Source of the DNA: an uncultured Clostridia bacterium
Lineage (GTDB): Bacteria; Bacillota; Clostridia; Oscillospirales; Acutalibacteraceae
DNA: 64,000 bases
Assembly: GCA_947584595.1 (NCBI GenBank)
Contig: CANPWP010000003.1
Coordinates: 1-64,000, forward strand
Direction of reading: 5' to 3'
A program made the position numbers and the translations under genes. Position 1 is the first letter of the stretch; each line of letters opens with the position of its first letter. This document shows, one piece after another, positions 34,613 through 38,980 of the stretch. Under the pieces are notes generated by a model. The model did no database searches, was not told the origin of the DNA, and saw only the letters and a list, made by a program, of their open reading frames with translations.

Positions 34613-35464
34613 TTGATGAATAAGAATATAAAAAATATTATATGTATAACTATTTCATTTGTATTGATGATTTTATGCTGTTCTGCAATAATATTTACGG
34701 TTAACGCTGCGACAAATAAAAATACCGCTCAGTCTGCGTCTGATGAACTTAATGTAACATCATCATCAAATCTTGCGTCGTCAGTTACAAAGACTTACTC
34801 AAATGAAGATACTGTTAATATAAAGCTTTATTTACAGTGTCAGAACTACATTGCAAACGGAGAGTATGAAATTACATATGATTCTTCAAAGCTTAAGTTA
34901 AGTAATTCCAACTTCGATTCAATCGGAAAAATTAAAATTACTCCTGATATAAGTAAAAATGGCGGAGATGTAATTAATGCTGATAATCCCGGTGAGATTA
35001 AAGGCAATTACTCAAGTGTTCTTGATCCATATGATTTTTTTACAGAAAAAGCGTTATTTGATGTTACGTTTGATATAATCGGAACAGGAAATACGACAGT
35101 AAGCTTTAAGATGATGGAAATGGATTCGTTTAATACCTCAACGAGCCAAACAGCAATGCTTATTTTTAATGGAAGTGCATTAGATTCATTTAATCAGTCG
35201 GCAAAAGCAAATTTTAAAATGTCTGATACAACACAGCCCGGCTCATCAAATACAAATACGGACAAAGTTTTAGGAGATGTAGATTTAGACGGAGATATTA
35301 ATGTAAAGGATGCGACCTTAATCCAGCTTTACTGTGCACATCTAAACACATTAACAGAAGAACAGCTGTTAAATGCAGATGTAGATAACGATAACGATGT
35401 AAATGTAAAGGATGCAACACAAATTCAGTTGTTTACAGCCCATCTTATTGCAGGTTTTAATTAA
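34613..35464 (+). CDS. Secreted cohesin-like domain + C-terminal dockerin protein
   Basis: Signal peptide; NIKLYLQCQNYIANGEYEITYDSSKLKL...ALFDVTFDIIGTGNTTVSFK (cohesin-like); LGDVDLDGDINVKDATLIQLYCAHL...NADVDNDNDVNVKDATQIQLFTAHLI (two dockerin repeats). Confidence 0.8.
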   Translation: MMNKNIKNIICITISFVLMILCCSAIIFTVNAATNKNTAQSASDELNVTSSSNLASSVTKTYSNEDTVNIKLYLQCQNYIANGEYEITYDSSKLKLSNSNFDSIGKIKITPDISKNGGDVINADNPGEIKGNYSSVLDPYDFFTEKALFDVTFDIIGTGNTTVSFKMMEMDSFNTSTSQTAMLIFNGSALDSFNQSAKANFKMSDTTQPGSSNTNTDKVLGDVDLDGDINVKDATLIQLYCAHLNTLTEEQLLNADVDNDNDVNVKDATQIQLFTAHLIAGFN

Positions 35465-35485
35465 ATAAAAAATAAAAATTGTAAG

Positions 35486-35520
35486 CTCGTGGTGTTTATT
35501 ACATCACGAGTTTTTCTTTT
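35486..35520 (+). terminator. Terminator
   Basis: ctcgtggtgtttattacatcacgagtttttctttt. Confidence 0.65.
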
Positions 35521-35777
35521 GTAAAAGATGTATTTTTATAAAATAATTTTTGTAAATACAATTCACCCAATAAAAGAGAAAATAATATTATATTACAAAA
35601 ATATATTAATTTATTATAATTCAAATTATCGTAAAAAATATTGACATTGTGACGGTTAAGTGATAAGCTATAAATGTAAATATATGGAAATTTAGTGGTA
35701 TATTTCTAATTTTGTAATAAAAAGTGAAATGTTCGTATTTTTCCATATAAAATTAAAATTATAAGGGGAGGTCAATT

Positions 35778-36614
35778 ATGAAAAAATTAAAAATTGTAGT
35801 ATCTTGTATTTTGGCAATGGTTATGCTTGCGGTGTCTACCGTGCCTGTTTTTGCAAATGAGGAAGATGATTTGTCTATTGCAAAAGCTCAGGTTTTAGAT
35901 TACGCATACCAATGTGAAAGTTTATATGTTTTTTATTATCATATGACACCTATTGATGTACCAATTTGGTCTAATGAATCAACACAAAGAATGAAAGATG
36001 TAGTTGAAAAGGTAAGAAATGAAGTTGATAATTGTGCAACTATTGAAGAAGTAGATGACTATCACGCTTTACTTGATGATGCAGTAGGTAAAATGTGCAT
36101 ATCTTCAAGTGAACTTCAATGGATGCTTGATTATATGAAAAATGATTACAACTCAACAGGCTATTATGAAGATGAAACCTATTCAGAATTAAAAAATATT
36201 TATGAAACTGCACAGTCTGCAATTAAATCAGGTATTGATATTGATATTCACAATGCTTATATTGATATGAGAAATGAGTTAAATAAGCTTTGCGGATATA
36301 ATCTTGTAAGATATGATGTTAATATGGACGGTGAATTTAATATTAAGGATTGTACACTTATGCAATTAAAATTAGCTGATTTAATGGATTTTAATTCATC
36401 TCAGAATTATGTTGCGGGATTTTACCATAACTCAACTATTAAAGAGGTTACAGAAAAACAATTAATGCTTGCAAATTTAAGTGATATTGAATATGTTAAA
36501 GAAATAGAAACAAATTTTGTAGAACTTGATCCAAGTATCAGAAATTACTTAGGCACAGACTATGAAACATCAAACCCTATGTATAATTATGACAGATATG
36601 TTTGGTGGACGTAA
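35778..36614 (+). CDS. Secreted protein with atypical dockerin-like module
   Basis: Signal peptide (MKKLKIVVSCILAMVMLAVSTVPVFA); one intact loop YDVNMDGEFNIKDCTLMQLKLADLM, second repeat degenerate (EKQLMLANLSDIEYVKEIE). Confidence 0.65.
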   Translation: MKKLKIVVSCILAMVMLAVSTVPVFANEEDDLSIAKAQVLDYAYQCESLYVFYYHMTPIDVPIWSNESTQRMKDVVEKVRNEVDNCATIEEVDDYHALLDDAVGKMCISSSELQWMLDYMKNDYNSTGYYEDETYSELKNIYETAQSAIKSGIDIDIHNAYIDMRNELNKLCGYNLVRYDVNMDGEFNIKDCTLMQLKLADLMDFNSSQNYVAGFYHNSTIKEVTEKQLMLANLSDIEYVKEIETNFVELDPSIRNYLGTDYETSNPMYNYDRYVWWT

Positions 36615-36646
36615 TATAATATCATTAAGAAAAGAGAGATTATAAA

Positions 36647-38949
36647 ATGAATAAAATACATTACTGTATATGTTTGTTATTAATTTTTTTATTGATAAGC
36701 CTTATATTGGTTATTCCTGTTTATGCAGAAGAAAACTCAAGCGATACTTGGGAAGTCGGAGAAGTCAGTGATTCCGGCCTTTTAAATGACGGCTTTGAGC
36801 CTGATGTTGTAAAAAAACTAAAGCGGATGGTTTTACACCCACTACTTTATCATATTATGATCCAAGAACCACAAATTCAGAAACTCCTGTAAAAAATCAG
36901 GGAAATATAGGTGCTTGCTGGGCGTTTGGTACAACAGCAATGCTTGAAAATGCTGTTTTTAAAAATACTGGATTAAAATACAGTTATTCTGTACAATCAA
37001 TGCGTATTATTACAAGCAATTTATTATATAACACATTTCACCGTTCGCCTGATTACGGGTATATTAATAGAAATGCATATGATGGAGGTACTGTAACATT
37101 AGGTATATCGTATTTATCACATAGAAACAATCCTATTACAAATGATAAATCATGGGTTGCTCCAAATTATGAATCAAGCATACCTTTTACATATAAAACA
37201 TTAGATACAAATGGCATATATCAAGATTTTGGTGCTGTTTGGCCTTCAAATATTAATACTTCTTATGCAAATGCTTATGCTACAGAAATAGAATATATCC
37301 CAACAGAATTAGAGTATATAAAAACTTATGTTTTGAAATATGGAGCGGCTTATTTATCATTTTGTATGAATAATTATAATCCTGAAACTTACGCAATATA
37401 TAATGATAATGTTGTTGGTAATTTAATGCATGGAGTAGCTATTGTCGGTTGGAATGATAATTATTCAAAAGAAAATTTTAACAAGGGAAATCAACCTAAA
37501 AACAACGGAGCATATCTAATAAAAAACAGTTGGGGAACAGATTGGGGAGACAACGGATATGCATGGGTTTCTTATGAAGATAAATCTTTATTTGCTGGAG
37601 GAAGTCAATGTGCAGTAGTTAAAGATGTAGCACCTGTATCAAAAAATGAATATGTGCTATCTTATGACTTTACGCCTCCTACAAATATACAAAGTGTTAA
37701 TTTAACAGGAAGCAATAATACAGTTGCAATGGCAAATGTTTTTGATGTATCAGAATTAGCAGATGAATATGGAAAAATAGATAAAGTAACCCTATATTCT
37801 CAGAATATCGGTTCATTTTATAAGGTGTATGTTGTCCCTATAAATACAAATGATGTAAAATTACCTGAAATGGATAAATTAGGTGCTGTAAAAGCACAGG
37901 GAACAATTGATTTTTCAGGATATATAACTGTGGATTTTAACACTCCATATATTTTAGATGCAAATACTAAGAAAGTAGCAATAGTTGTAAAATTTACTGT
38001 TGATAAAGAAGAAACTTCAACCGTGAAACTATATAAAGAATCTAATCAGGTTGGCTATGGCTATATGCCATTGACATACCCTGGCGAAAGTTATTATTAT
38101 GCAAATGGAATATGGAAAGATATTACAGGGGGAGAAATAAGTAATGTTGGTAACTTTTGCATAAGACCAACACTTGTAAGAAGAACTTCAGTTACTAAAA
38201 ATTCTACGTTATCTACAAATCAAGTAAGGTATCAAGGAAAGGCTATAAATTTAAACGTATATTTAAATGGAAATCAGCTTTATTCCATAAAGAAAAACGG
38301 TACAACACTTCTTTATCAGGATACTGATTTTTTATACTACGGAGGTACAATTTCGTTAAGAAAATCTTTTCTTGATAGTTTAAGTAAAACTTCTCCTACA
38401 AATATTGTTTTTGAGTTTACTGACGGCAATTCGCAGACATTAACAATTTTACCTAAATCAAAGTTAACATCTGCAAGCTTTAGTGGAAAGATTGCTCAAG
38501 GGAAGAATTTAATTGCTTCAGTGCAAAGTGAAACAGGTAAGGTTACTTATTATGTTTCATATCAATGGCAATCTTCTTCAAACGGAACGACATGGTCAAA
38601 TATAAGCGGAGCAACAAGCAATATATATAAATTAACAAATAATGAGTTTTTAAAATATGTAAGATTAAAAGTTTCTTCAAATAATAATTCAGTTTACTAT
38701 TATCCGAATACTATATATTCTGCAAAGTCTTCAACAAAGGTTATAATTTTCGGTGATGTTGATTTAGACGGTGAGGTTACTGTTAATGATGCAACAAAAG
38801 TTCAGCTTTATGTATCACACTATACAACTTTAAACGCAGAACAGCTTTATGCGGCAGATGTAGACGGTGACGGAGAAGTTACTGTAAAAGATGCCACATA
38901 TATTCAACAGTATGTTGCAAATTTAATTTCCAAATTTCCTGTTGAATGA
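36647..38949 (+). CDS. Papain-like (C1) cysteine protease with dockerin, split into two frames (ORFs 36647-36892 and 36940-38949) joined by a -1 shift
   Basis: Frame 1: signal peptide; frame 2: ADGFTPTTLSYYDPRTTNSETPVKNQGNIGACWAFGTTAMLENAV, HGVAIVGWND, KNSWGTDWGDNGYAWVSYED; C-terminal GDVDLDGEVTVNDATKVQLYVSHY...ADVDGDGEVTVKDATYIQQYVANLI. Continuous if -1 shift at A_AAA_AAA 36811-36817. Confidence 0.85.
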
Positions 38950-38980
38950 TAAATTAATAACTATAATATTATTTATAAAA

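Follow-up and report, generated by a model that had tools for sequence, protein, structure and literature searches.

The gene for a dockerin-bearing, papain-like surface protease is split between two reading frames at seven consecutive adenines (A7) in the window, by which we mean the whole 64,000-nucleotide stretch of DNA that was analysed. The frame break is genuinely there in the sequence, and its explanation is an ordinary one. It is probably a recent, real one-base insertion or deletion (indel) in a dispensable, fast-evolving gene. We infer that the indel is present in the organism and that the function of the gene has been lost; programmed recoding of the protease is unlikely. An earlier note on this DNA had set four explanations side by side: programmed −1 frameshifting at a slippery heptamer, a recent null mutation, homopolymer phase variation and a sequencing error. 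The first of these did not hold up, while the second is the best supported, by intact relatives that lack the tract, by a stop-free stretch of 711 codons and by the dispensability of the module to which the gene belongs.

Geometry of the frame break

The A7 run has a T on its 5' side and CT on its 3' side, and is read in the zero frame as GTA AAA AAA CTA (Table 1). Translation of ORF1 gives ...NDGFEPDVVKK, followed by LKRMVLHPLL... up to the stop. The −1 frame is bounded upstream by a TGA at 36802–36804 and overlaps ORF1 over positions 36805–36889; when the two frames are joined at the tract, a read-through protein of 767 aa results. Alignment to the closest orthologue (NDGFQPRYVEKEEGEGFTFTDLSSYDPR) puts the change of frame no more than a few codons from A7. 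Codon usage agrees: upstream of the tract the zero frame scores +19.7, and downstream it scores −6.3 against +20.6 for the −1 frame, with the segment of ORF1 past the tract scoring as non-coding. The position of the tract, its zero-frame phase and the length of the read-through had all been given correctly in the earlier note. Its catalytic ORF does end at 38949, although the start that it gave, 36940, is only the first ATG of a frame that is open from 36805.

Table 1. Features of the protease locus, and the second tract break found in the same genome.
Feature	Position	Strand	Content or evidence
Intact secreted dockerin protein	34613..35464	+	Upstream edge of variable module; Pfam, G009 comparison
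Partner gene, 278-aa secreted dockerin-like protein	35778..36614	+	Adjoins protease, likewise in relatives
ORF1, 81 aa	36647..36892	+	Signal peptide, start of mature N-terminus, out-of-frame codons past A7, stop
−1 open frame with protease body	36805..38949	+	Translation, Pfam, nearest solved structures
A7 tract, site of coding-frame change	36811..36817	+	Sequence, codon-usage scores, orthologue alignment
Second break, A7 in thioester-domain pilus-type adhesin	G000:C14, about 38075-38081 (L073)	minus	Scan, Pfam TED

The protease

In the read-through protein a signal peptide is followed by Peptidase_C1 (residues 71–320, 65.9 bits in Pfam), Lectin_like, also matched in Pfam, CBM_X2 and a dockerin. 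ORF2, the −1 frame, has Pfam matches to CBM_X2 and Dockerin_1 (35.7 bits), the latter making the dockerin one of type I. Membership of the C1A papain-like family rests on the Peptidase_C1 match together with the catalytic residues: Q and C lie in NQGNIGACWAFG (the Cys in GACWAFG), H in MHGVAIVGW and N in KNSWGTDWG. The best sequence matches in the PDB are 4d59 and 4ci7 (E about 1e-35), structures of the cell-surface cysteine protease Cwp84. Like that type of C1A protease, the protein has a papain-like domain and then a lectin-like domain; unlike it, it carries a C-terminal CBM_X2 and dockerin, and its frame is broken. A ‘papain-like’ module of R. flavefaciens was rejected as a family match, as it belongs to an NlpC/P60 protein, a different family (PMC3573020). 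The genome encodes a second dockerin papain-like protease elsewhere, and this one is intact.

The signal peptide lies in ORF1 and the catalytic Cys, His and Asn in the −1 frame, as the earlier note had described. With export signal and catalytic core in different frames, neither ORF alone can give an exported, active enzyme. Internal initiation was considered as a rescue and dismissed, since the −1 frame has its first ATG 3' of the catalytic Cys and initiation there cannot restore the enzyme.

Relatives and genomic neighbourhood

Relatives of the protease were sought in 161 genomes of the genus at a cut-off of E <= 1e-40, and were found in 7 genomes besides the source. In all seven (G051, G157, G003, G100, G151, G067 and G029) the gene is a single open frame. 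Three can be aligned through the break site (G051 at 57%, G157 at 49% and G003 at 45% identity), and all of these lack an A-run there; the other four are more distant. The alignment with G051 is free of gaps at the site, where this relative reads GTTGAAAAGGAAGAGGGTGAG. G003 has the gene in the corresponding chromosomal position, with the SipL-domain and spoIVA genes downstream of it. A contig pattern scan for a second assembly of the same species gave no match, and a protein scan gave no relative.

The surroundings of the gene vary between close relatives. The sister species G009, whose spoIVA is 96% identical, keeps similar DNA (73%) at 34765–35439, and its sole match over 35440–38972 is 72 bp long and falls in the dockerin region. 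The module made up of the protease gene and its partner is thus accessory. The spoIVA gene of G003 is 98% identical, yet the front half of its protease is strongly diverged, with identity of about 0.17–0.5 at the front and 0.57–0.73 at the dockerin end, while the DNA downstream of the protease is about 85% identical. This gradient points to a front half that is mosaic or diverging fast. Since the module is missing in G009 and the front is diverged in G003, the protease gene is dispensable and fast-evolving.

The dockerin papain-like proteases of the group adjoin a secreted, dockerin-like protein of 250–300 aa, encoded in the window by the partner gene (elsewhere at L022–L025 and L051–L053); G003 has two copies. 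The partner gene of the window matched no Pfam family above the cut-off. Its product is possibly an inhibitor, chaperone or other partner of the protease.

Age of the break

Downstream of the break, 711 codons contain no stop. Under simulated neutral change of 0.02, 0.03 or 0.05 substitutions per site, the probability of finding no stop is 0.07, 0.03 or 0.003, respectively, and about 6 stops are expected at 0.05. The break is therefore young, unless it does not exist in the organism or the frame remains in use; a mere sequencing error, or phase variation of the gene, would leave a stop-free stretch as well. In the scenario that we favour, an ordinary A-tract would recently have gained or lost one base, disrupting the gene of a Cwp84-like C1A dockerin protease. 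The cell would then make, from the gene as sequenced, only an exported 81-aa fragment that lacks the catalytic residues, and any full-length enzyme would stem from incidental, low-level slippage at A7.

Programmed frameshifting as an unlikely alternative

Genes with programmed −1 frameshifting of the A_AAA_AAR class include dnaX and elements of the IS3 family. The protease site resembles this class in the sequence and phase of its heptamer, which lies between overlapping frames; it differs in being unconserved, in lacking a stimulator and in yielding a short product of no apparent role. Seven relatives have a single frame and the three that can be aligned lack the tract. RNA folding downstream of the site is that of shuffled sequence (z 0.06 over 103 nt and 0.10 over 58 nt, pseudoknot-free folding), and no good stimulator resembling a Shine–Dalgarno (SD) sequence lies upstream, the best anti-SD match being the 4-nt TGAT. 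Neither of the marks that the earlier note had pointed to, a conserved heptamer and downstream structure, was thus found, and no plausible role could be assigned to the 81-aa zero-frame product. In E. coli a large number of heptamers, among them A-rich ones, are prone to shifting; those without stimulators exceed a background near 0.05% by only 2- to 10-fold, and high efficiency accompanies stimulators (PMC4066793). We consider it very improbable that the full protease arises by programmed ribosomal frameshifting at A_AAA_AAA or by productive slippage during transcription.

The motif itself is common. In 464 kb sampled, 183 zero-frame A_AAA_AAR heptamers were counted, in 138 of 374 genes, and the A7 runs inside genes fell into the three phases as 81/56/83. 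As 81 of these 220 runs have the A_AAA_AAA phase, the slippery phase at a break within A7 is roughly a one-in-three coincidence. One strand of the window (GC 35%) holds 24 A7, 4 A8 and 1 A9 runs, and an indel in such an AT-rich genome most likely falls in an A7 run of this kind. In an AT-rich genome such as this, with the motif in more than a third of the genes sampled, finding a slippery-looking heptamer where a frame breaks is consequently weak evidence for recoding.

Sequencing error or genuine change

Frame changes at homopolymers were sought by a codon-usage scan of 846 kb, about half of the genome. In simulation its recovery of one-base indels was about 88%, and 61–69% once ordinary gene junctions had been removed. 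Most candidates were such junctions, and inspection left two clear tract breaks, both at A7; a general homopolymer decay of the assembly was rejected on this result. The second break lies in an adhesin gene (Table 1) that is single-frame and intact in G160 and G080 (77% identity), both of which carry an in-frame A7 at that place. The downstream frame of the adhesin (1549 aa) was also seen to run without a stop into what appears to be the next pilin gene (...KNKKRKEAFKMKKKN...), and the operon may contain more than one frame anomaly.

An isolated sequencing or assembly error, in which the consensus miscounts the homopolymer of a gene that the organism has intact, would account for the full preservation of the catalytic residues and of the frame downstream. 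Such errors typically occur in homopolymers, and, according to a published survey of frame transitions, singleton frameshifts validated by BLAST are expected to reflect sequencing errors and not indel mutations (PMC3711429). Random errors, however, should mostly hit non-secreted genes, and among the roughly 398 A7+ tracts (runs of seven or more) of such genes in the 846 kb no clear break was found, at the sensitivity of 61–69%. Secreted-like genes have 43 such tracts, and the sole other clear break is again in a surface gene. The probability that two of two breaks fall in secreted genes if errors are random is about 0.01, a small-number, after-the-fact figure based on n=2 breaks, a crude signal-peptide rule and a scan that overlooks roughly one in three simulated breaks. 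The location of both breaks in secreted genes speaks for real mutations that are tolerated, or for switching, rather than for error, which we regard as unlikely.

Phase variation as an unlikely alternative

Switching would mean that changes in the length of the poly-A tract flip the gene in and out of frame and so turn the protease on and off. The tract lies about 165 nt into the gene of a secreted protein, and another surface gene, that of the adhesin, is also broken at A7. A precedent exists in inlA of Listeria monocytogenes, which has poly-A alleles that are in frame (A7) or truncated (A6); both occur across many isolates, reversion has been measured, and the 5' tract, of similar length, is estimated to vary at a rate about 1000-fold above that of point mutation (PMC2831843). 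By this analogy, a tract of A7-like length can be mutable and reversible. The two cases share a short, early poly-A tract in a surface-protein gene, in which a one-base change truncates the product; they differ in that the allele here comes from one genome and the alignable relatives lack the tract. Moreover, seven adenines are an ordinary run length in this genome, and the density of A7+ tracts is 1.49 per 1000 codons in secreted-like genes vs 2.13 in others, which gives no support for dedicated contingency loci. Phase variation of the protease is accordingly judged quite unlikely, and the wider proposal, that short A-tracts serve as reversible on/off switches for both the dockerin protease and the thioester-domain adhesin in this clostridial genus, is doubtful to a similar, slightly greater degree. 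Were it true, A-tract switching would generate population-level heterogeneity in surface proteins, and an A7/A8 switch would offer a testable case of phase variation affecting a pilus-type adhesin as well as a dockerin protease, in a clostridial genus that has been little studied.

An Elp3-like gene with a candidate AUU start

A separate observation concerns an Elp3-like radical SAM gene that lies directly 3' of rnc (G000:C2, about 14890; L059/L115). No ATG, GTG or TTG start was found near its N-terminus. In 12 of the 12 genomes examined, an in-frame ATT stands at the expected start and overlaps the stop of rnc (TATTAA, or CTATTAA/GTTATTAA); some 10 nt before it comes a GGAG-like motif. The arrangement marks the gene as a candidate for a conserved AUU start with translational coupling.
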